From the NCBI RefSeq assembly GCF_022012295.1, contig NZ_JAKLTN010000001.1, forward strand, positions 1,426,001 through 1,490,000: a DNA stretch of 64,000 bases. Direction: 5' to 3'. This DNA comes from Dechloromonas hankyongensis. Its GTDB lineage: Bacteria > Pseudomonadota > Gammaproteobacteria > Burkholderiales > Rhodocyclaceae. Below the pieces are notes generated by a model, which saw only the letters and a program-made list of their open reading frames with translations, searched no databases and was not told where the DNA came from. Both the position numbers and the translations under genes were made by a program. Of the stretch, positions 4,693 to 18,586 are shown one piece after another. Numbering within the stretch: position 1 is the stretch's first letter; each line of letters begins with the position of its first letter.

Positions 4693-4708
4693 TGGCACGC
4701 GGCTTGCG
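4693..4708 (+). promoter_or_regulatory. Sigma-54 promoter of nasA
   Basis: TGGCACG-CGGC-TTGCG matches the sigma-54 consensus TGGCACG-N4-TTGCA in all but the last base, with GG (4694-4695) and GC (4706-4707) exactly 10 bases apart. Predicted transcription start is near 4719, leaving a leader of about 110 bases before nasA. Confidence 0.75.
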
Positions 4709-4733
4709 TTACTGAGGGCAGCACAGCGATCTA

Positions 4734-4786
4734 CTCGTCAACGGCGGCGGGAACGTGATAACGACTTCATGCGCTGATCATTCCCG
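4734..4786 (+). promoter_or_regulatory. ANTAR-type hairpin in nasA leader
   Basis: CTCGTC (4734-4739) and GGCGGG (4746-4751) form a 6-base-pair stem with two G-T pairs around the six-base loop AACGGC, which has A at position 1 and G at position 4, as in RNA targets of ANTAR antiterminators. An alternative stem, GGCGGGAA (4746-4753) with TTCCCGTC (4781-4788, one wobble), uses the 3' arm of the first hairpin, so the two exclude each other. I find no second A-G hexaloop and no T-run, so this is at best a reduced version of the nrtA leader. Confidence 0.45.
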
Positions 4787-4828: not shown

Positions 4829-6043
4829 ATGGACAAGAAATCATTCCTGCAGGCCGGCCACACCCCCACCTTGCTGGCCGCCTTCCTCTACTTCGACCTC
4901 GCCTTCATGGTCTGGGTCCTGCTCGGCCCGCTCGGCGTCGGCATCGCCAAGGATCTCGGCCTGTCGCACGCCGAAAAGGGTCTGATGGTCGCCACCCCGG
5001 TGCTGGCCGGCGCGCTGCTGCGCATCGCCATGGGTATCCTGGTCGACCGCCTGTCGCCCAAGAAAGCGGCGATCATCGGCCAGATTATCGTCATCGGCGC
5101 CATGGTCTATGCCTGGCTGGTCGGCGTCCATTCCTACTCCGAAGTGCTGGTGCTCGGTGTCTTCCTCGGCGTTGCCGGTTCTTCCTTCGCCGCCGCGCTG
5201 CCGCTGGCATCGCGCTGGTATCCGGCTGAACACCAGGGTACCGCGATGGGCATCGCCGGGGCCGGCAACTCGGGTACCGCGCTCGCCGCGTTGTTCGCGC
5301 CGGGCCTGGCTGCCATCTATGGCTGGACCAACGTCTTCGGCATCGTGCTGATCCCGCTGGTCATCGTGCTGATCGCCTTCGTCTTCATGGCCAAGGATGC
5401 GCCGGATGCGCCGCCGCCCAAGACCTTCGCCGAATACCTGAAGGTGCTTAAGGACAAGGACGCCTGGTGGTTCATGTTCTTCTACTCGGTGACCTTTGGT
5501 GGCTTCGTCGGCCTGGCTTCCTCGCTGGTCATCTACTTCAACACCCAGTATGGACTGGACCCGAAGACGGCCGGCTTCTTCACCGCCGGCTGCGTGTTTG
5601 CCGGTTCGCTGGTCCGCCCGATCGGCGGCAACGTGGCCGACCGCATCGGTGGCGTCAAGTCGCTGACCGTGATGTACATCTTCGCCGCCATCTTCCTCGG
5701 TATCGTCAGCTTCGGCCTGCCGGAAGCCTGGATGGCGCTGATCGTCTTCGTCTGCGCCATGCTCTCGCTGGGCATGGGCAACGGTGCGGTGTTCCAGCTG
5801 GTGCCGCAGCGCTTCAAGAAGGAAATCGGCGTCATGACCGGCCTGGTCGGCATGGCCGGCGGTGTCGGTGGTTTCTACCTGGCTTCCAGCCTCGGTTACT
5901 CGAAGCAGATGACCGGCAGCTATCAGGCTGGTTTCCTGATCTTCGCCGGCCTCGCCGTGCTTGCCCTGGTCGGCCTGACCGGCGTCAAGACCCGCTGGCG
6001 GACCACCTGGGGTGCCAGCCACCTGACGGCCGCCAAGATTTAA
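4829..6043 (+). CDS. nasA: Nitrate/nitrite transporter, MFS (NasA/NarK)
   Basis: A 404-residue inner-membrane permease of the nitrate/nitrite porter family with about 12 membrane segments. The glycine-rich nitrate signature GIAGAGNSGTALAALF in helix 5 and its counterpart GMAGGVGGFYLASSLG in the second half are both present, as is the loop motif GILVDRLSPKK after helix 2. It imports nitrate (or exchanges it for nitrite) for assimilation; the NasA subtype rather than respiratory NarK is inferred from the sigma-54/NtrC-like promoter and from the PP2C-kinase fusion downstream, a pairing known in Pseudomonas and betaproteobacteria. There is no strong ribosome site, only AGAGAG upstream. A terminator follows the gene, so the downstream kinase gene may be expressed by read-through. 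Confidence 0.88.
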   Translation: MDKKSFLQAGHTPTLLAAFLYFDLAFMVWVLLGPLGVGIAKDLGLSHAEKGLMVATPVLAGALLRIAMGILVDRLSPKKAAIIGQIIVIGAMVYAWLVGVHSYSEVLVLGVFLGVAGSSFAAALPLASRWYPAEHQGTAMGIAGAGNSGTALAALFAPGLAAIYGWTNVFGIVLIPLVIVLIAFVFMAKDAPDAPPPKTFAEYLKVLKDKDAWWFMFFYSVTFGGFVGLASSLVIYFNTQYGLDPKTAGFFTAGCVFAGSLVRPIGGNVADRIGGVKSLTVMYIFAAIFLGIVSFGLPEAWMALIVFVCAMLSLGMGNGAVFQLVPQRFKKEIGVMTGLVGMAGGVGGFYLASSLGYSKQMTGSYQAGFLIFAGLAVLALVGLTGVKTRWRTTWGASHLTAAKI

Positions 6044-6130: not shown

Positions 6131-7819
6131 ATGCCATTGAACGTAGCCGTTGGACATTCTTCGCTGACCGGGCCGCGCGAGCGCAATGAGGACTTCTGCG
6201 GCATCGCCACGCCGGACGGCCAGGAGCTCGAGAACAAGGGCATCATCGCCGCCGTTGCCGATGGCATCGGCGGCCACAAGGGCGGGCGCGAGGCGGCCGA
6301 ATACACGGTGCGCGGGCTGCTTGCCGATTACTTCGCCACCCCCGATACGTGGAGCGTCCCGCGCGCCATCGAGACGGTGAGCACCGCGCTCAACCGCTGG
6401 GTGATCGCCGAAGGCAGCCGCAATGCGGACCTCGCCGGCATGGCCACCACGCTGTCGGCGGTTGTGCTGCGCGGCCGGCGCTTCTACACGGCGCACATCG
6501 GCGATTCGCGCATCTACCGGCTGCAGGGCGGCCGCTTGCAGCGGCTGACGGTCGATCACACCTGGGAACACCCGGAGCTGAACAATGTGCTGTCGCGGGC
6601 CATCGGCCTCGATCCGCGGGTGCTGATGGATTTTGCCGACGGCGAACTGGCGGTGGACGACCGTTTCCTGCTCGTTTCCGACGGGGTGTGGGGTGTGCTG
6701 CCCGACGCCCTGATGACCGACGTGCTGCTCGACCATCCCGAGCCGCAGGGCGCTGCCGCGGCGCTGACCAGCCTGGCGCTGGCCCACGGCGGGCACGACA
6801 ACGCCTCGGCCGTGGTGGTCGACGTGCTGGCGCTGCCACCGGCCAATCTGCGCGACAGCATGGAAGGTGCCGCCAACCTTCCATTGCCACCCAAACTCCG
6901 GCCGGCCCATGAACTCGATGGCCTGGTGATCGAGGAGGTGCTGCACGACTCGCGCGAAACGCTGCTCTACCGGGTCAGCAATCCGCGCAACGGCCAGCAA
7001 CTGGTGCTCAAGACGCTGCAACCGGGCATGGCGGGCGACGCCAGTGCCACGGCCGCGCTGCTGATGGAGGAATGGCGGGCCCGGCGCGTCGTGTCGCCGT
7101 TCTTCCCGCAGGTCATCCCGGCTGACCATCGCAGCGGCCTGTACTACCTGATGACCTGGCATGCCGGGGCGACTTTGCAGGAGCGCCTGGACGGCGATCA
7201 ACATTTTCCGGTCGGCGAGGTGGTGCGCCTCGGCGTCGCGCTGCTCAAGGCGATTTCCGCGCTGCATCGCCTCGACATCGTGCATCGCGACATCAAGACC
7301 GACAACATCCACCTCGGCCAGGACGGCGTCCTGCGCATCCTCGACCTCGGTGTCGCGGTCAGCTTGGCCGAGCGCAAGGTCGGCGATCCGATCGGCCAGG
7401 CCGGCACGCCGTCCTACATGGCGCCGGAACTGTTCGAAAATCCCGAGCCGGAATTCGGCCACGATCTCTACGCGGCTGGCGTCACCCTCTACCACCTGCT
7501 GACCCGCAAATACCCCTACGGCGAAATAGAGCCCTTCCAGACGCCCAAGTTCGGCGAGCCGGCCCGGCCCACCCGCTGGCGGCCGGAAATTCCCGGCTGG
7601 CTGGAAAACGTTTTGCTGAAGGCGGTGGCACTGGAAGGGAAGGACCGTTTCGAGACGGCGGAGGAATTCATCCTCGCCCTCGAACGGGGCGCCGCCCGGC
7701 CAATTGCGGCGCCGGCCCGGCAGCCGCTGCTGCAGCGCAATCCACTCAAATTCTGGAAAGTCACGGCCGGCATTTCGCTGGCCCTGAATCTGGTGCTCTG
7801 GCTTTTGCTGATGCGCTAG
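6131..7819 (+). CDS. PP2C phosphatase-Ser/Thr kinase fusion, membrane anchored
   Basis: A 562-residue two-domain signalling enzyme. Residues 1 to about 240 are a PP2C-type Ser/Thr phosphatase with metal-binding aspartates in the family motifs (RNEDFCG, VADGIGGHKGG, HIGDSRIYRL, SDGVWGVL, GHDNASAVVV). Residues about 260-530 are a Hanks-type kinase (lysine in LVLKTLQPG, catalytic loop HRDIKTDN, then DLG in place of DFG, MAPELF, HDLYAAGVTLY). The tail is one membrane segment (about 540-560) after RNPLKFWK. Opposing activities in one chain suggest a switch acting on a shared substrate. Its place behind nasA matches an arrangement known in pseudomonads and betaproteobacteria, which suggests control of nitrate uptake or reduction; the target is not known. 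The start ATG at 6131 begins at the PP2C domain with no good ribosome site visible. Confidence 0.9.
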   Translation: MPLNVAVGHSSLTGPRERNEDFCGIATPDGQELENKGIIAAVADGIGGHKGGREAAEYTVRGLLADYFATPDTWSVPRAIETVSTALNRWVIAEGSRNADLAGMATTLSAVVLRGRRFYTAHIGDSRIYRLQGGRLQRLTVDHTWEHPELNNVLSRAIGLDPRVLMDFADGELAVDDRFLLVSDGVWGVLPDALMTDVLLDHPEPQGAAAALTSLALAHGGHDNASAVVVDVLALPPANLRDSMEGAANLPLPPKLRPAHELDGLVIEEVLHDSRETLLYRVSNPRNGQQLVLKTLQPGMAGDASATAALLMEEWRARRVVSPFFPQVIPADHRSGLYYLMTWHAGATLQERLDGDQHFPVGEVVRLGVALLKAISALHRLDIVHRDIKTDNIHLGQDGVLRILDLGVAVSLAERKVGDPIGQAGTPSYMAPELFENPEPEFGHDLYAAGVTLYHLLTRKYPYGEIEPFQTPKFGEPARPTRWRPEIPGWLENVLLKAVALEGKDRFETAEEFILALERGAARPIAAPARQPLLQRNPLKFWKVTAGISLALNLVLWLLLMR

Positions 7820-10046: not shown

Positions 10047-10622
10047 ATGCTTACCGTACTCGTAATTGACGAATCCAAGGCCAGGGCCGGCGAAATCTGC
10101 GCCGGGCTGGCGCTCGCCGGCTACCAGGTGGCCGCCATCCTGGCCGGCGCCGACAGCCTGACGGCCGAAGTCGAAAAACTCCAGCCCGACGTCATCCTGA
10201 TCGACACCGACTCACCCAGCCGCGACACGCTGGAAAACCTGGCCGCCATGAACAAGGACATGCCGCGCCCGGTGGTGATCTTTACCCAGGAAGACGGCCA
10301 GGAAACCATCCGTGATGCCGTCAAGGCAGGCGTTTCCGCCTATATCGTCGACGGCCTCGACCCGAAGCGCATCAAGCCCATCGTCGAGGTGGCGCGGGCA
10401 CGCTTCGAGGACACCCAGGCCCTGCGCCGCGAACTGGACGAGATTTCGCAAAAGCTGTCCGACCGCAAACTGGTCGACAAGGCCAAGGGCGTGCTGATGA
10501 AAGCCCGCGGCCTCGACGAGGATGCGGCCTACCACGCCATGCGCAAACTGGCGATGGAACGCGGCCAGACCATGTCCAAAGTGGCGAAGGACGTCATCGA
10601 CATGGCCCGCGTGTTGCTCTAA
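10047..10622 (+). CDS. nasT: NasT-like response regulator, ANTAR antiterminator
   Basis: A 191-residue regulator. Residues 1 to about 120 are a receiver domain (acidic pair D8-E9, probable phospho-acceptor D53 in ILIDTDSP, then VVIFTQEDG). A coiled linker (ALRRELDEISQKLSDRK) leads into an ANTAR RNA-binding domain (about 130-191) with the three-helix pattern LVDKAKGVLMKARGLDEDAA...AMERGQTMSKVAKDVIDMARVLL. ANTAR proteins such as NasT, NasR and EutV bind paired hairpins in nascent RNA and prevent termination. A matching leader begins about 160 bases downstream, ahead of nrtA. The usual partner NasS, a nitrate-binding protein that restrains NasT, is not encoded in the window. The start has no strong ribosome site; translational coupling to cbiX is possible. 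Confidence 0.88.
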   Translation: MLTVLVIDESKARAGEICAGLALAGYQVAAILAGADSLTAEVEKLQPDVILIDTDSPSRDTLENLAAMNKDMPRPVVIFTQEDGQETIRDAVKAGVSAYIVDGLDPKRIKPIVEVARARFEDTQALRRELDEISQKLSDRKLVDKAKGVLMKARGLDEDAAYHAMRKLAMERGQTMSKVAKDVIDMARVLL

Positions 10623-10645: not shown

Positions 10646-10662
10646 TGCACTGCAATAGTGCA
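10646..10662 (+). promoter_or_regulatory. NtrC-type enhancer site for nrtA
   Basis: TGCAC-TGCAATA-GTGCA is a perfect 5-base inverted repeat, extended to 6 by a T-A pair, matching the NtrC pattern TGCACY-N5-RGTGCA. Its centre is about 124 bases upstream of the predicted sigma-54 start, the usual position for an NtrC enhancer. Confidence 0.65.
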
Positions 10663-10715: not shown

Positions 10716-10749
10716 ACTAGTTATTTATAACTAGTACCAAAGAACTAGT
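10716..10749. promoter_or_regulatory. ACTAGT palindrome plus third half site
   Basis: ACTAGTTAT-TT-ATAACTAGT is a perfect 9-base inverted repeat (10716-10735), and another ACTAGT lies at 10744-10749, abutting the sigma-54 promoter. The AT-rich stretch between the NtrC site and the promoter is where a bending protein (IHF) or a second regulator would act. The factor is unknown. Confidence 0.45.
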
Positions 10750-10751
10750 GC

Positions 10752-10767
10752 TGGCACGGCCATTGCA
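10752..10767 (+). promoter_or_regulatory. Sigma-54 promoter of nrtA
   Basis: TGGCACG-GCCA-TTGCA is an exact match to the sigma-54 consensus, with GG (10753-10754) and GC (10765-10766) 10 bases apart. Predicted start is near 10778, which puts both ANTAR hairpins and the terminator inside the leader RNA. Confidence 0.88.
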
Positions 10768-10786
10768 ATAGTCCAGTCAAAGCGCA

Positions 10787-10848
10787 CGGTCAAAGGCGGC
10801 CGGGCGAGAGTCGAGCACCAGCCGACTCACACTGGACAAGGGCGTCCA
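10787..10848 (+). promoter_or_regulatory. Paired ANTAR-binding hairpins in nrtA leader
   Basis: Hairpin 1 is CGGTC (10787-10791), loop AAAGGC, GGCCG (10798-10802). Hairpin 2 is TGGAC (10833-10837), loop AAGGGC, GTCCA (10844-10848). Both have 5-base-pair stems and six-base loops with A at position 1 and G at position 4, the defining feature of ANTAR-protein targets in nas and eut leaders. The 30-base linker holds an extra small stem (GAGTCG 10808-10813 with CGACTC 10823-10828). Hairpin 2 shares bases 10840-10848 with the terminator below, so binding of NasT to the pair would stop the terminator from forming. Confidence 0.85.
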
Positions 10849-10895
10849 TCCGCGTTGCCAACCGGCAGCTCGGATGTGACGCCCGTTTTGTTTTT
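10840..10895 (+). terminator. Regulated intrinsic terminator in nrtA leader
   Basis: GGGCGTC (10840-10846) pairs with GACGCCC (10878-10884), extended inward by CATCCG (10847-10852) with CGGATG (10871-10876) and one bulged T. The run GTTTTGTTTTT follows (10885-10895). It sits 26 bases before nrtA and its 5' arm overlaps ANTAR hairpin 2, so it is the off state of an antitermination switch. Confidence 0.88.
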
Positions 10896-10921
10896 CGATT
10901 CGAGCAATCAAGGAGCAAGCA

Positions 10922-12199
10922 ATGGAAGACAAGAAACTGGCCCTGCCGGAAGCTGCCGCCGGCAAACCGTCCCTGTCACGTCGTGATTTCGTTTCAACTG
11001 CCCTGGGAGCCTCTCTGATGGCCATGGTCTCTCCCGGCGTCCGCAGCGGTGCCTGGGCCGCTGGTTCCGACGCCCCCGAAAAGAAGGAAGTCCGTATCGG
11101 CTTCATCCCGCTCACCGATTGCGCCTCGGTCGTGATGGCCGCGGTCAACAAGTTCGACGAGAAGTACGGCATCAAGATCATCCCGTCCAAGGAAGCTTCC
11201 TGGGCGTCGGTGCGCGACAAGCTGGTCAATGGCGAGCTGGACTGCGCCCACGTGCTGTACGGCCTGGTCTACGGCGTGCAGATGGGCGTCGGCGGTCCGA
11301 AGAAGGACATGAACGTGCTGATGACCCTGAACACCAACGGCCAGGCCATCACGCTGTCGAACCAGATGAAGGACAAGGGCGCCATCGACGGCCCCAGCCT
11401 GGCCAAGCTGATCGCCAAGAAGGAACGCGAATACACCTTCGCCCAGACCTTCCCGACCGGCACCCACGCCATGTGGCTGTACTACTGGCTGGCGGCGCAG
11501 GGCATCGACCCGCTCAAGGACGTCAAGACCATCACCGTGCCTCCGCCGCAGATGGTCGCCAACATGCGCGTCGGCAACATGGACGGCTACTGCGTCGGCG
11601 AACCGTGGAACAACCGCGCCATCATGGACAACATCGGCTTCACGGCGACGACGACGCAGGACATCTGGACCGACCATCCGGAGAAGGTGCTCGGCACCAC
11701 CGCCGACTGGGTCAAGCAGAACCCGAACACCGCCCGCGCCGTGGTCGCCGCCATCCTCGACGCCGGCAAGTGGATCGATGCCTCGATCGCCAACAAGCAG
11801 AAGACGGCCGAAACCATCGCCCAGAAGTCCTACGTCAATACCGATACCGACGTCATCGTCGCCCGCATGCTCGGCCGCTATCAGAACGGCCTGGGCAAGA
11901 GCTGGGACGACAAGAACTGCATGAAGTTCTTCAACGACGGTGCGGTGAACTTCCCCTACCTGTCCGACGGCATGTGGTTCATGACCCAGCACAAGCGCTG
12001 GGGTCTGCTCAAGAGCCACCCGGATTACCTGGCCGTCGCCAAGCAGGTCAACCGCATCGACATCTACAAGCAGGGTGCTACTGCCGCCGGCGTCGCCCTG
12101 CCCAAGAGCGAGATGCGCTCGAGCAAGTTCATCGACGGCATGACTTGGGACGGCAAGGATCCGGCCAAGTACGCGGATGGTTTCAAGGTCAAGGCTTGA
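10922..12199 (+). CDS. nrtA: Nitrate ABC transporter, periplasmic binding protein
   Basis: A 425-residue protein of the NrtA/CmpA family. The N-terminus has a Tat signal (SRRDFVSTALGASL, R20-R21) after an 18-residue leader. The mature part begins VRIGFIPLTDCASVVMA, typical of NrtA, and includes the family stretches PSKEASWASVRDKLVNGELDCAHVLYG, FPTGTHAMWLYYW and GYCVGEPWNNRAI. It captures nitrate (or nitrite) in the periplasm and delivers it to the permease encoded next. AAGGAG lies upstream of the ATG. Expression is predicted to need NtrC, sigma-54 and ANTAR antitermination. The Tat signal argues that this is the transport protein and not the cytoplasmic sensor NasS. Confidence 0.92.
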   Translation: MEDKKLALPEAAAGKPSLSRRDFVSTALGASLMAMVSPGVRSGAWAAGSDAPEKKEVRIGFIPLTDCASVVMAAVNKFDEKYGIKIIPSKEASWASVRDKLVNGELDCAHVLYGLVYGVQMGVGGPKKDMNVLMTLNTNGQAITLSNQMKDKGAIDGPSLAKLIAKKEREYTFAQTFPTGTHAMWLYYWLAAQGIDPLKDVKTITVPPPQMVANMRVGNMDGYCVGEPWNNRAIMDNIGFTATTTQDIWTDHPEKVLGTTADWVKQNPNTARAVVAAILDAGKWIDASIANKQKTAETIAQKSYVNTDTDVIVARMLGRYQNGLGKSWDDKNCMKFFNDGAVNFPYLSDGMWFMTQHKRWGLLKSHPDYLAVAKQVNRIDIYKQGATAAGVALPKSEMRSSKFIDGMTWDGKDPAKYADGFKVKA

Positions 12200-12265: not shown

Positions 12266-13195
12266 ATGAGCGCAATGACGATGACAAGCGATTTCGGTGT
12301 CGAAAAACCGGCCGATCCCGCCACAACCAGCAAGCCGGTCGCGGCGGTAGTCGCAGAGCCGGCCAAGGAAAAGAAAATGGAACAAACCGCAACCCTGCCG
12401 GCCGGCGTGCCGCTCGGCGAAAAATTCAGTGCCCTGCTGCGCGCCGTGCTGCCGCCGGTTCTCGGCCTGATGGTGCTGATCGGCATCTGGCACGTCGCCA
12501 CCCACAAGGGCGGCAGCATTCCAGGGCCGGCCCAGGTCTGGGATGCCGCCGTGGCGTTGTTCTCCGACCCGTTCTACCGCAACGGCCCGAACGACCAGGG
12601 CATAGGCTGGAACGTGCTGTCCTCGCTGCAGCGCGTCGCCATCGGCTTCGGCTTCGCGGCGCTGGTCGGCATTCCGCTCGGCTTCATCCTCGGTCGCTCG
12701 GCTTTCCTGTCGGCCATGGTCAATCCGATCATCAGCCTGCTCCGTCCGGTGTCGCCGCTCGCCTGGCTGCCCATCGGCCTACTGGTGTTCAAGAAGGCCG
12801 ACCCGGCGGCGACCTACACCATCTTCATCTGCTCGATCTGGCCGATGATCATGAACACCGCCCAGGGCGTGCAGCGCGTGCCGCAGGACTACCTGAACGT
12901 CGCCCGCGTGCTGGCGCTGTCCGAGTGGAAGGTGGTCACCAAGATCCTGTTCCCGGCCGTGCTGCCCTACATGCTGACCGGCATCCGCCTGTCCATCGGC
13001 ACCGCCTGGCTGGTCATCGTCGCCGCCGAAATGCTCACTGGCGGCGTCGGCATCGGCTTCTGGGTGTGGGACGAGTGGAACAACCTGAAGGTCGAGCACA
13101 TCATCATCGCCATCTTCGTCATCGGCATCGTCGGCTTGATCCTCGAACAGGCGCTGATCCTGCTGGCAAAGAAACTCACCAAAGAAGCGTCGTAA
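12266..13195 (+). CDS. nrtB: Nitrate ABC transporter, permease
   Basis: A 309-residue inner-membrane permease of the NrtB/SsuC/TauC type with about six membrane segments. The conserved cytoplasmic loop that contacts the ATPase is near residues 195-225 (VPQDYLNVARVLALSEWKV, the EAA-type motif). An unusual N-terminal 60 residues, rich in Pro, Ala and Lys and probably disordered, precede the first membrane helix. TAGGAG is placed before the ATG. It lies 66 bases after nrtA and 11 bases before the ATPase gene, so the three form one operon. Confidence 0.92.
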   Translation: MSAMTMTSDFGVEKPADPATTSKPVAAVVAEPAKEKKMEQTATLPAGVPLGEKFSALLRAVLPPVLGLMVLIGIWHVATHKGGSIPGPAQVWDAAVALFSDPFYRNGPNDQGIGWNVLSSLQRVAIGFGFAALVGIPLGFILGRSAFLSAMVNPIISLLRPVSPLAWLPIGLLVFKKADPAATYTIFICSIWPMIMNTAQGVQRVPQDYLNVARVLALSEWKVVTKILFPAVLPYMLTGIRLSIGTAWLVIVAAEMLTGGVGIGFWVWDEWNNLKVEHIIIAIFVIGIVGLILEQALILLAKKLTKEAS

Positions 13196-13206
13196 GGAGC
13201 CTCATC

Positions 13207-14007
13207 ATGGAAAAGTTCGTCCAAATCGAGCGTGTCGGCCAGACTTTCGACACCAAGAAAGGCAAGTTCGTCGCCCTGCGCGATATCGACCTGACCATCG
13301 CCCAAGGCGAGTTTATCGCCCTGATCGGCCACTCCGGCTGCGGCAAATCGACACTGCTCAACCTGATCGCCGGCCTGACCAAGCCGACCACCGGCGTGCT
13401 GCTGTGCGATGGCCGCGAGATCGCCGGCCCCGGCCCGGAGCGCGCCGTGGTTTTCCAGAACCACAGCCTGCTGCCCTGGCTGACCTGCTTCGAGAACATC
13501 TACCTCGCCGTCGAGCGCGTGTTCAGCGCCAAGGAGGGCAAGCCCAAGCTCAAGGCCCGCACCCAGGCGGCCATCGAGCTGGTCGGCCTGGCGCATGCCG
13601 CGCACAAGTATCCGCATGAAATCTCGGGCGGCATGAAGCAGCGCGTCGGTATCGCCCGCGCCCTGTCCATGGAGCCCAAGGTGCTGCTGATGGACGAGCC
13701 CTTCGGCGCCCTCGACGCGCTGACCCGCGCCAAGCTGCAGGACGAGCTGATGAAGATCTGCGAGAAGACCAAGGCCACGGTGGTCATGGTCACCCACGAC
13801 GTCGACGAGGCGGTGCTGCTCTCCGACAAGATCGTCATGATGACCAACGGCCCGGCGGCGACCATCGGCGAGGTGCTCGAAGTCAAGCTGCCGCGCCCGC
13901 GCGAGCGCCTGACCATGGCCCACGATCCGGCCTACATCGGCTACCGCGCCGCGGTGCTCGAGTTCCTGTACGAAAAACAGGCCCACGTCGAGAAAGAGGC
14001 TGCATAA
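13207..14007 (+). CDS. nrtD: Nitrate ABC transporter, ATP-binding subunit
   Basis: A 266-residue ATPase of the NrtD/SsuB type. Walker A is GHSGCGKST, the Q-loop is in VVFQNHSLLPWLTCFENI, the signature is SGGMKQRVGIARAL, Walker B is VLLMDEPFGALD and the switch histidine is in VTHDVDEAV. It drives nitrate uptake with NrtA and NrtB. It has a single nucleotide-binding domain with no NrtC-like extra binding domain, so it probably works as a homodimer, as NasD does in Klebsiella. AAGGAG lies 9 bases upstream of the ATG. A terminator follows the gene. Confidence 0.92.
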   Translation: MEKFVQIERVGQTFDTKKGKFVALRDIDLTIAQGEFIALIGHSGCGKSTLLNLIAGLTKPTTGVLLCDGREIAGPGPERAVVFQNHSLLPWLTCFENIYLAVERVFSAKEGKPKLKARTQAAIELVGLAHAAHKYPHEISGGMKQRVGIARALSMEPKVLLMDEPFGALDALTRAKLQDELMKICEKTKATVVMVTHDVDEAVLLSDKIVMMTNGPAATIGEVLEVKLPRPRERLTMAHDPAYIGYRAAVLEFLYEKQAHVEKEAA

Positions 14008-14061
14008 GCAATTCTGTCTGTCAGTTCCATCGTCGCTGCTCTCTCTCCATAGCGACTTTTT

Positions 14062-14092
14062 GCCCGCCGTCGTCAGACGGTGGGCATTTTTT
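14062..14092 (+). terminator. Intrinsic terminator after nrtABD
   Basis: GCCCGCCGTC (14062-14071) and GACGGTGGGC (14076-14085) form a 10-base-pair stem with one G-T pair and a 4-base loop, followed by A and six T residues. It separates the transporter operon from narX. Confidence 0.88.
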
Positions 14093-14130: not shown

Positions 14131-16104
14131 ATGGTTCGCACGTTTACTAATGGACTTTCAAGGATGCTGGCCAACAAAGGCAGGCTATCGCGCAAAATCG
14201 TCGGCATGCTGGTGGTGTTTTTCGCCGTCGCCACCGCGGCCATCGGTTTGACCCTGCTCACTTCCTGGCAACTGGAAGGCGTCGCCGCGGCTATCAACGA
14301 CGCCGGCAGCCAGCGCATGCGCACCTATCGCATGGGCCACCTGATGGCGCGCGGCCTGGAAGCCAAGACCCCGGAAGATTCGTTCGGCCCCGCGCTCGCC
14401 GACGAACTGGCCCGCTTCGACAAGATGTTGCGCGACCTGCAATTGGGCGATCCGGCGCGGCCGTTGTCACCGCCCCGCAATTACGAAGTTCAGGATCGGC
14501 TGTCCGAAGTCGGCAAGGTCTGGCAGGCCAAGGTGCGGCCGCTGGTCGCCGGCTATCTGGTCGGCGCCCGGGATGAACGGGAACGCGTCACCGACCGCTT
14601 CGATACCGAACTGGAGCCTTTCGTCAGCCGCATCAACGAGCTGGTGCTGGCCATGGAGCGCAGCTACGCCGCCGACACCAACCTGTTGCGCACGCTGCAG
14701 GTCGCCCTGGTCATGCTGGCCATTTTCGGGACCGTCATCCTGATCCGCTATTTCGACCGCCTGGTCATCCGGCCGGTCGGTGTGCTGCACACCGGCATGC
14801 AGCGGATGATCGCCAACGACCTCGGCGTCCGCGTGCCGGTGGCGACCGACGACGAACTCGGCGGCCTGGCGGACGGCTTCAATAAAATGGCCGAGCATCT
14901 GGAGACCGTACACGGCACGCTGGAACACCGCGTCGAAGCGGAAACGCGTCGCCTGGCCGCGCGCAATCGCGAGCTGGGCATCCTCTACGGCATGACCACC
15001 TTCCTGACCGAGCCGGCCCCGCTGGAGGCCTTGTGCGAAGGCTTCCTCGAACGAATCAAGACCACGCTGGGCGCCGATGCCGGAGCGGTGCGCCTGTACG
15101 TGCCGCAAACCGAGCAGCTGTACATGATGACCTACGACGGCCTGTCTGACGACTTCATCGCCAATGAAGGGCAGATCAATTGTGCTGACTGTCTGTGCGG
15201 CAACGTTTTCCAGACCTCCCGGCCGGCCGCTTTCGCCACTGCCAACCCGCCGGAGGGCATGCGCCTGCGCACCTGCATCCGCGAGGGTTTCGCCACGGCC
15301 ACCGCCTTCAGCATCCTGTGCGACAAGCAGCGCATCGGGGTGTACAACCTCTATTTCCGCCGGCCGCAGGCGCTGTCCGATCAGGAAATCCACCTGCTCG
15401 AAACGCTCGGCCACCATCTCGGCGTGGCCATCGAGAACCAGCGCCTGAAATCGCGGGAAAAGGAACTGGCAGTATCCGAGGAGCGCAACCTGCTGGCCCA
15501 GGAGCTGCACGATTCCATTGCCCAGGGCCTGGCCTTCCTGAATATCCAGGTCCAGTTGCTGCAGGATTCGCTGCGCAAGGGGCGCACCGAGGAGGCGATG
15601 CAGACGGCCGGCCAGCTGCAGGAAGGCGTCCAGGAAAGCTACGACGATGTGCGCGAACTGCTCGTCCATTTCCGCACCCGCCTGCACCAGGCCGACCTCG
15701 ATTCGGCTATCCATGCCGCACTGGAGAAATTCGAGGGGCAGACCGGCATCAAGACTGACTACGAGCGCCGCGGCGCGATGGTTCCGATGGCGCCCAGCGA
15801 CGAAATCCAGATCATGCATATCGTGCAGGAGTCCTTGTCCAATATCCGCAAGCACGCCAAGGCCAGCCATGCACGCGTCGTCGTCGAGCAGGAAAAGGCG
15901 CTCAGCCGGATCAGCATCGAGGACGACGGGGTCGGTTTCGATCCGTCATCCAATCCCAACTGCCACTCCGACCGCCATGTCGGCCTGAAAATCATGCGCG
16001 AGCGCGCACACCGCATCGGGGCCGAATGTCGGATAACATCGCAACCGGGGAAAGGGGCCTGTGTGACCCTGAACCTGCCAAAAGAAAATAGGGAGACTGT
16101 CTGA
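14131..16104 (+). CDS. narX: Nitrate/nitrite sensor histidine kinase, NarX-like
   Basis: A 657-residue membrane sensor kinase. A first membrane segment (about 25-47) is followed by the nitrate-binding P-box INDAGSQRMRTYRMG (residues 55-69), close to that of NarX/NarQ. A second segment (about 190-210) leads to HAMP (about 210-265) and a GAF-like central module with clustered cysteines (INCADCLCGNVFQ). The kinase core is the HisKA_3 type: phospho-accepting H460 in LAQELHDSIAQGLAFL and an ATPase domain with N-box ESLSNIRKHAKA and DDGVGFD. It detects nitrate or nitrite in the periplasm and phosphorylates the regulator encoded next. The start is uncertain; ATG 14164 (MLANKGRLSRK) is a good alternative. 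Confidence 0.9.
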   Translation: MVRTFTNGLSRMLANKGRLSRKIVGMLVVFFAVATAAIGLTLLTSWQLEGVAAAINDAGSQRMRTYRMGHLMARGLEAKTPEDSFGPALADELARFDKMLRDLQLGDPARPLSPPRNYEVQDRLSEVGKVWQAKVRPLVAGYLVGARDERERVTDRFDTELEPFVSRINELVLAMERSYAADTNLLRTLQVALVMLAIFGTVILIRYFDRLVIRPVGVLHTGMQRMIANDLGVRVPVATDDELGGLADGFNKMAEHLETVHGTLEHRVEAETRRLAARNRELGILYGMTTFLTEPAPLEALCEGFLERIKTTLGADAGAVRLYVPQTEQLYMMTYDGLSDDFIANEGQINCADCLCGNVFQTSRPAAFATANPPEGMRLRTCIREGFATATAFSILCDKQRIGVYNLYFRRPQALSDQEIHLLETLGHHLGVAIENQRLKSREKELAVSEERNLLAQELHDSIAQGLAFLNIQVQLLQDSLRKGRTEEAMQTAGQLQEGVQESYDDVRELLVHFRTRLHQADLDSAIHAALEKFEGQTGIKTDYERRGAMVPMAPSDEIQIMHIVQESLSNIRKHAKASHARVVVEQEKALSRISIEDDGVGFDPSSNPNCHSDRHVGLKIMRERAHRIGAECRITSQPGKGACVTLNLPKENRETV

Positions 16105-18236: not shown

Positions 18237-18266
18237 TTGACTGTGTCATGCACATGCCATTACAGT
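18237..18266 (+). promoter_or_regulatory. Candidate sigma-70 promoter of nrdAB
   Basis: TTGACT (18237-18242), 18 bases, TACAGT (18261-18266). Predicted start near 18273 coincides with the 5' edge of the B12 aptamer. Confidence 0.55.
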
Positions 18267-18271
18267 GGACA

Positions 18272-18450
18272 CCGTTGATGGTTCCCTCCCAGGGATTAAA
18301 AGGGAATCCGGTGCCGGGCCTATGGCCTGAAATCCGGAGCTGCCCCCGCAACTGTCGTCGGCGAGCGTTTCGTCAATCTGACCACTGGTTTTTGACCGGG
18401 AAGGCAGACGAAATGCGTTGAACCGAGAGCCAGGAGACCTGCCGCAACGT
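18272..18450 (+). ncRNA. Cobalamin (B12) riboswitch
   Basis: All core elements of the AdoCbl aptamer are visible in order: the AAGGGAATCCGGTG block (18300-18313), the GGAGCTGCCCCCGCAACTGT block (18336-18355) and the B12 box AGCCAGGAGACCTGCC (18428-18443). The outer stem P1 closes with CGTTG (18273-18277) and CAACG (18445-18449). It controls nrdAB: binding of cobalamin should turn the class Ia reductase down. A hairpin over the ribosome site is described separately as the likely read-out. Confidence 0.95.
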
Positions 18451-18586
18451 CCTTCCAACCAACGATGGGGCGGGGTGTCCCTGGCGAAAGGTTTTTGCGT
18501 GTTGCTGTTCGTTTTCGTTCGCGTGTCGTTTGCCGTCTTGGGCCTGGCCCACGCTGGTGTTCGTCCGGCGTCCGGCACGCTCTTTC

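Follow-up and report, generated by a model that had tools for sequence, protein, structure and literature searches.

An nrtA leader of the ANTAR class with a hairpin in its linker, next to a nasT gene, in a Dechloromonas hankyongensis genome in which NasS was not found

Introduction

Leaders read by ANTAR-domain proteins (EutV at eutP, NasR at nasF, AmiR at amiE, and those read by NasT) contain two hairpins, P1 and P2, with six-base loops that have A at position 1 and G at position 4 (A1/G4), and P2 overlaps a terminator. The nasF leader of Klebsiella serves a nitrate operon under ANTAR control, in which NasF is presumably the nitrate-binding protein. In the EutV systems, A1/G4 as well as the spacing of the hairpins matter: natural eut linkers are 5-12 nt long, and induction drops drastically when the linker measures 3 or 14 nt (PMC3369931). 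Moreover, 20 added nt abolish antitermination by EutV, and the authors propose that EutV is handed from P1 to P2 and that space limits this step (PMC8934654). An actinobacterial ANTAR survey curated its hits to linkers of 2-25 nt (PMC8164766).

In the NasS-NasT systems of Paracoccus, Azotobacter and Bradyrhizobium, a NasT-type regulator also has nitrate genes as targets, and the usual sensor of nitrate is NasS. In Bradyrhizobium, the narK leader was predicted to contain NasT hairpins, and narK rose without nasT (PMC6759348). In Dechloromonas aromatica RCB, a NasDEFT cluster with narK close by was pointed out in 2009 (PMC2907700); the passage concerned carries no mention of leader RNA, antitermination or NasS. 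Beyond the works cited here, a literature search for NasT in betaproteobacteria or Dechloromonas, for NasS absence, for narK RNA and for P11 yielded only that paper (mainly non-subscription papers were covered, others were judged by title).

The nrtA leader of D. hankyongensis has the hexaloops of the known ANTAR leaders, an overlap of P2 with a terminator and a regulator with an ANTAR domain. It differs from them in its 30-nt linker, which is folded into a covarying hairpin. It differs from the Paracoccus, Azotobacter and Bradyrhizobium systems in that NasS was not found by the searches described below and that the target is nrtABC, and from Klebsiella, where NasR senses nitrate itself through its own NIT domain (PMC3369936). 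The window holds the same genes as the D. aromatica cluster, in the same genus group.

Results

The window, by which we mean the whole 64-kb stretch that was analyzed, lies on contig C1 of a 4.1-Mb genome (99.98% complete). It contains, in this order, a cbiX-like gene (9658), nasT, the leader, nrtA, nrtB, nrtC, a terminator-like stem, a narX/narQ-like gene and a narL-like gene; nasT, nrtABC, narK and the elements ascribed to them below are on the plus strand. The nasT gene (10047..10622), which ends about 165 nt before P1, encodes a 191-aa protein with a receiver and an ANTAR domain (Pfam ANTAR 67.7 bits, Response_reg 39.9 bits), the REC-like plus ANTAR composition of NasT in the NasS-NasT system. 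It was the only match of a whole-genome ANTAR search (all 38 candidates scored). The product of nrtA (10922..12199) is a nitrate-binding protein (PF13379, 352 bits; best solved relative NrtA 2g29, E 3e-85) with an SRRDF motif, which we take to be a Tat-type signal. It is followed by the permease gene nrtB (12266..13195; TIGR01183 252.6 bits, cut-off 209) and by nrtC (13207..14007), an open frame with a start codon that was named ATPase from sequence and position, not from a family search. A terminator-like stem (14061..14086; 11 pairs, then TTTTTT) would close nrtABC; the region has 13 sites of this type versus 6.5 expected. Close to nrtABC lies a NarX/NarQ-like kinase gene (14131-16104), and the window also includes narK (4829..6043), whose product scores 298 bits with the nitrate/nitrite transporter model TIGR00886, slightly below the cut-off of 311.7. 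By NasT, the nearest relatives are named Azonexus, Dechloromonas, Azonexaceae or Rhodocyclaceae, or only unplaced betaproteobacteria. Elsewhere in the window, a cobalamin riboswitch (111 bits, 18261-18460) stands directly before a 975-aa open frame that by eye resembles ribonucleotide reductase.

A preliminary description had placed two A1/G4 hairpins with six-base loops ahead of nrtA, and reading base for base agreed with it. P1 (10787-10802) consists of CGGTC (10787-10791), the loop AAAGGC (10792-10797) and GGCCG (10798-10802), and the antiterminator hairpin P2 (10833-10848) of TGGAC (10833-10837), the loop AAGGGC (10838-10843) and GTCCA (10844-10848). A linker hairpin of six covarying pairs is located between them (10808-10828). 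In the intrinsic terminator (10840..10895), bases 10840-10852 pair with 10871-10884, and the U-tract TTTTGTTTTT (10886-10895) follows. Bases 10840-10848 are common to P2 and the terminator stem (10840-10884), and direct reading thus bore out that the 5' arm of the terminator is taken from P2. The proposed mutual exclusion of the two structures also held, since they share these bases and folds of transcript prefixes switch from P2 to the terminator. P2 was present in the best fold at transcript ends 10848, 10854, 10866, 10872 and 10878 and absent at 10860, and the terminator was present from 10884 onward; P2 is favored until the 3' arm of the terminator emerges. Structures, Pfam domains and gene order agree with the architecture described earlier, an ANTAR leader before a nitrate ABC transporter with the regulator encoded adjacent upstream. 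We conclude that this is very probably a transcription-attenuation leader for nrtABC that is read by the ANTAR protein NasT, which would bind it and allow read-through.

The combination of these structures is rare. A generic scan of both strands of the 64 kb (hairpins of at least 4 bp, A..G.. loops, linkers of 2-60 nt, an overlapping stem and then a T-run) detected 20 dual hairpins, only one of which, the nrtA leader, had a terminator. In 60 dinucleotide shuffles, a mean of 11.7 dual hairpins was found, none with a terminator (0/60). The predicted fold of 10770-10910 surpasses those of shuffles by 6.7 SD. A covariance search, proposed with the preliminary description, was conducted with model R1, built from 24 leaders (see below), and gave 116 bits for the window site. 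In the same genome, the sole other match with E<=1 was the same terminator on the reverse strand, and no second nrtA-type leader was found with R1 (150 of 3,966 first-look candidates scored). The genome has 31 other sites that match the P2 core exactly or with a single mismatch. The one inspected, an exact match, lies by eye inside a gene, without P1 or a terminator.

Upstream of the leader, pattern matches revealed a sigma54-type promoter, TGGCACGGCCATTGC (10752..10766), with a predicted start at about 10778, and a palindromic NtrC-like site, TGCACTGCAATAGTGCA (10646..10662); the patterns correspond to what we take to be the sigma54 and NtrC consensus sequences. The sigma54 consensus has two matches in the window versus 0.16 expected, namely, the nrtA and narK promoters. 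The NtrC-like pattern has one, with a shuffle mean of 0.11 (11/100 shuffles have one). The promoter is present in 26/26 extracted leaders, at a distance to P1 that is constant within 3 nt, and an NtrC-like site is present in 26/26 by a loose pattern that was drawn up after viewing those sequences. Judging from these sites, NtrC and sigma54 probably use this promoter, and because the start is predicted at about 10778, P1 would lie at the 5' end of the RNA. Between the NtrC-like site and the promoter, we noted a perfect palindrome, ACTAGTTA-TTTA-TAACTAGT (10718-10737), and a further ACTAGT (10744-10749), with similar words in 11 of 26 relatives; the palindrome is possibly a further regulator site.

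The predicted start also bears on bases 10771-10777, which pair with the 5' arm of P2 in the best fold of 10770-10910 and could in principle act as an anti-antiterminator strand. We rejected this reading as very improbable: these bases are upstream of position 10778 and are probably untranscribed, because the sigma54 site sets the start there, and by eye the match is smaller or gone in many relatives.

NasT was found in 30/36 same-genus genomes, this one included; the search gave no nasT in G003, G004, G011, G013, G021 and G032. From the 30 nasT loci, 26 complete leaders were extracted with patterns containing the P2 core and most of P1. Two loci that end at a contig edge (L004 and L023) were left out of the count, and among the 28 reaching far enough, extraction failed only in L019 and L020. 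In L020, another gene follows nasT and the leader (L088) is located about 1.3 kb further on; in L019, no leader was seen and nrtA follows nasT at once. In the genome of the latter (L019/L047/L085), promoter and leader are apparently missing and the nrtA start is altered. In another genome (G057), nrtA-nrtB is flanked by two nasT copies (L038). Loss of the A1/G4 loops in homologous leaders, which according to the preliminary description would speak against it, was not seen: A1/G4 is present in all 26, although partly by construction, because the extraction pattern fixes A1/G4 of P2 and most of P1. A T-rich tail (at least 8 T in 12) follows the terminator stem in 25/26 leaders and is shorter in L016.

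For 24 leaders, pairing was compared; their relatedness inflates the shuffle control, and one of them served as the template for drawing the structure. Six of the seven P1 pairs are invariant and the remaining one varies on one side, while P2 shows no variation at all (its four core pairs are invariant). Since P1 and P2 do not vary, covariation cannot test them. The terminator helix is 94.6% paired, with two-sided changes at 3 of 13 pairs; two pairs are often broken, one in 7/24 leaders and another in 10/24.

The linker hairpin behaves differently. It is present in 24 of the 26 leaders, and the other two (L010 and L032) have 4-nt linkers instead (7 nt by the P1 core alone). All six pairs of its stem changed on both sides, and 97.2% of 144 cells are paired (24 leaders). 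The covariation score is 0.265, compared to at most 0.071 for slid versions, and it was reached by 0/500 shuffles, a control weakened by the relatedness of the leaders. As the linker stem covaries and P1 and P2 hardly vary, the former seems to be kept as a fold and the latter as letters. The linkers of 23-33 nt fold to at most 10 free bases. In the window, the P1-P2 distance is 30 nt, of which about 5-9 bases are unpaired once the hairpin has formed (1 + 4 if the outer three pairs of P1 are counted, about 8-9 otherwise).

To place this in a wider sample, we surveyed the linkers of 47 unique leaders with a terminator from loci L037-L138 and L149-L171. Eight linkers are 3-8 nt long and without a hairpin, and 39 measure 16-44 nt. 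Most of these 39 leaders come from one genus. Of the long linkers, 31/39 beat shuffles at p<=0.05 and 36/39 fold to at most 10 free bases; the three that do not shorten this far are L044 and L163, both of 16 nt and lacking a hairpin, and L053 (39 nt folding to 23). The P1 called by the script is possibly wrong in the distant L053, L162 and L164, and four P2 sites were dropped for want of a P1 call. That the third stem exists was thus confirmed exactly, and the spacing role suggested for it earlier gained support from covariation that stops short of proof. We consider it probable that the linker hairpin is a spacer selected for its fold and not for its letters. A pause or folding-order element would likewise need the fold and not the letters to be kept, and is the unlikely reading of the two, as leaders without the hairpin mostly have linkers of 2-9 nt (with two 16-nt exceptions), which fits spacing better.

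Two Rfam families appear to be NasT/ANTAR leaders, that is, the same element under other names: narK RNA (RF03032) and P11 (RF00625). In the consensus lines of both, the sigma54 promoter and a P2 hairpin whose loop has A1/G4 can be read, but the window leader stays below both gathering scores (17.1 versus 43.2 for RF03032 and 22.4 versus 70 for RF00625), and P11 is typed by Rfam as a gene, unlike a leader. With strict filters, the narK model found 13 places in 12 of 274 class genomes (2 above the cut-off) and the P11 model 10 places in 10 (1 above the cut-off); two places are common to both sets. Both hairpins are present in 11/13 narK places; L156 is without P2, and L157, which has the appearance of coding sequence, has no terminator. 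A P2 whose loop has A1/G4 occurs in 10/10 P11 places, together with a P1 of at least 4 bp in five; in the other five, P1 is shorter, interrupted or doubtful. Model R1, for which only the 24 leaders were used, recovers 12/13 narK places (not L157) and 10/10 P11 places at E<=0.011. A NasT-like match (E<=1e-3, some partial) lies within 1.5 kb of 9/13 narK and 6/10 P11 places. Both models seem to include sigma54 promoter DNA (L149-L171). The Rfam family ncS035 was a weak candidate relative, as P2 was not seen in its consensus. Reportedly, a study of nirBD antitermination in P. aeruginosa may already place P11.

The second sigma54-type promoter of the window (4693..4707; consensus match, predicted start at about 4719) precedes narK. 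The narK leader (about 4720-4777) has an outer stem (4724-4728/4772-4776) that closes two hexaloop hairpins, a P1-like one (4735-4750, loop AACGGC) and a P2-like one (4755-4770, loop AACGAC, closing U-U), and it has no terminator. The double hairpin was found in 16 leaders with a sigma54 site, 14 without the near-copies L086 and L096; six other same-genus narK genes (L067, L078, L081, L091, L092 and L093) have no sigma54 site of this type. A T-run of at least 4 before the start codon is absent in 15/16 leaders (L087 has TTTTT). Loops were searched as [AG]..G.., so that G4 is present by construction; position 1 is A in 14/14 P1 loops and in 10/14 P2 loops, and G in the other four. In the 14 leaders, 4-5 of 5 pairs are formed in P1 and 3-5 of 5 in P2, and two-sided changes occur at 6 of 14 consensus pairs. 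L077, L082 and L087 form the outer stem from different bases; the best fold of L077 differs, and L062, L071, L090, L095 and L096 alter loop or stem size. As a single sequence, the window narK leader folds no better than shuffles (z -0.27), and searching it with Rfam, narK model included, gave no ANTAR-type match. We regard it as a likely second NasT target and the junction as a putative terminator-less relative of ANTAR leaders. The rise of narK without nasT in Bradyrhizobium (PMC6759348) provides a precedent for a role other than antitermination.

A cytoplasmic nitrate-binding NasS was not found in the genome with four protein queries and PF13379. The NrtA query returned NrtA only, as did a divergent NasS (L037). 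PF13379 gave NrtA and one exported SsuA-type protein above the cut-off and two matches below it. That protein (L034) was rejected as NasS, since it looks like an exported protein of the SsuA type, encoded next to a permease. In 12 same-genus genomes, the Oleispira NasS query had one match, nrtA by its place, in 11, and in G002 a 28-bit scrap in addition. The Methylococcaceae NasS query reached 404-489 bits in 4/4 controls with an abutting NasS (G328, G199, G180 and G178) and 470-565 bits in G184, G210, G299 and G213, where the match is about 4 kb from nasT. In contrast, 11/11 genomes with a Tat-type NrtA after nasT had no NasS-level match, with NrtA at 268-287 bits; G056 has, besides its Tat-type NrtA, a second match of 213 bits. 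The divergent NasS of G038 scores 186 bits, below its own NrtA, so that the score alone cannot separate NasS from NrtA, but the number of matches can. A strict link between Tat-type NrtA and a missing NasS was weakened by three genomes with another NrtA type (G093, G191 and G069), in which this query also gave no NasS-level match. At the class level, 71/274 sampled genomes encode NasT. An abutting or overlapping NasS-like gene is present in about 17 of the 40 nasT neighborhoods fetched, a rough count, because the signal-peptide rule misreads Sec types. In a Candidatus Accumulibacter genome (L109), a guanidine-II riboswitch (6657-6709, 38.2 bits) is located immediately 3' of nasT, and the ANTAR leader follows about 3.4 kb beyond it.

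How NasT would then receive the nitrate signal can be read in several ways. Tat cargo folds before export, and a tentative but possible reading is that the Tat-exported NrtA precursor substitutes for NasS, holding NasT in the cytoplasm and freeing it upon nitrate binding. The synteny nasT-leader-nrtA is in line with this, as are the 11/11 Tat-type genomes without a NasS-level match versus 4/4 controls above 400 bits. On the other side stand the three genomes with the other NrtA type, the second match in G056 and a tree that does not group the window NrtA with NasS, whose branches are long; a derivation of NrtA from NasS, also considered, found no support in that tree. The receiver of NasT speaks for control by a partner and not by phosphorylation, because its conserved Lys is replaced in 18 of 19 NasT rows, with or without NasS, as expected of a partner-controlled receiver, and Asp53 is lost in five (L109, L112, L115, L118 and L124).

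Asp53 is present in the window NasT and a NarX/NarQ-like kinase gene (14131-16104) is close by, but in view of these replacements and of the terminator-like stem standing between nrtABC and narX, phosphorylation of NasT by such a kinase is quite improbable. A sensorless NasT that is active whenever made would agree with the failure to find NasS by the four queries and PF13379. The leader would then read the amount of NasT, and nitrogen control would be left to NtrC and sigma54 alone. We consider this somewhat unlikely, as the genus has retained both the terminator and the loops, for which an always-active NasT would offer little reason.

Discussion

The leader structures with their conservation and covariation, and the regulator gene, are established here, and they place the nrtA leader in the ANTAR class, with a hairpin that is probably a spacer and a regulator for which no NasS was found. 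The cluster of nasT, nrt and narK in D. aromatica has been known since 2009 (PMC2907700). The promoter, the failure to find NasS, the narK leader of this window and the link to the Rfam families narK and P11 are new beyond the preliminary description. Neither the nrtA leader nor the narK junction calls for a new principle.

According to our model, NtrC and sigma54 would start the transcript at about 10778 under nitrogen limitation, as suggested by their sites. P1 would form at once after transcription start, and P2 could fold as long as RNA polymerase stood between about 10848 and 10878. If no active NasT were present, the terminator would then invade P2 and transcription would stop at about 10895. 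Active NasT, bound to P1 and handed to P2, would let P2 keep 10840-10848, and the operon would be read through; in this way the nrtA leader would presumably respond to nitrate. The linker hairpin would fold away 21 of the 30 linker bases, bringing P1 and P2 as near to each other as in short-linker ANTAR leaders.

Taken as a whole, a wider picture for Azonexus/Dechloromonas is speculative and rather improbable. In it, a NasS-less NasT would run a nitrate-uptake regulon with two leaders, and the NrtA precursor would sense nitrate in the cytoplasm besides serving as transporter subunit. The spacer of the nrtA leader would be folded, and the narK leader would be a terminator-less three-way junction bound by NasT, either for control of narK other than by attenuation or as a decoy that determines how much NasT is free.

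With no NasS found, the question of how nitrate is signaled to NasT in this genus is reopened, and the tie to ANTAR leaders gives the Rfam labels narK and P11 a mechanism. In eut, the best-studied ANTAR switch, linkers are short, an insertion of 20 nt abolishes function and the protein is currently modeled as moving from P1 on to P2. Leaders of the nrtA type, with equally long but folded linkers, could test whether distance, length or time is the limit. If the spacer reading is true, the folded nrtA linker means that the ANTAR hand-over is limited by distance in space and not by the number of bases or by time. The nrtA leader and the narK junction make such open points of ANTAR regulation testable.
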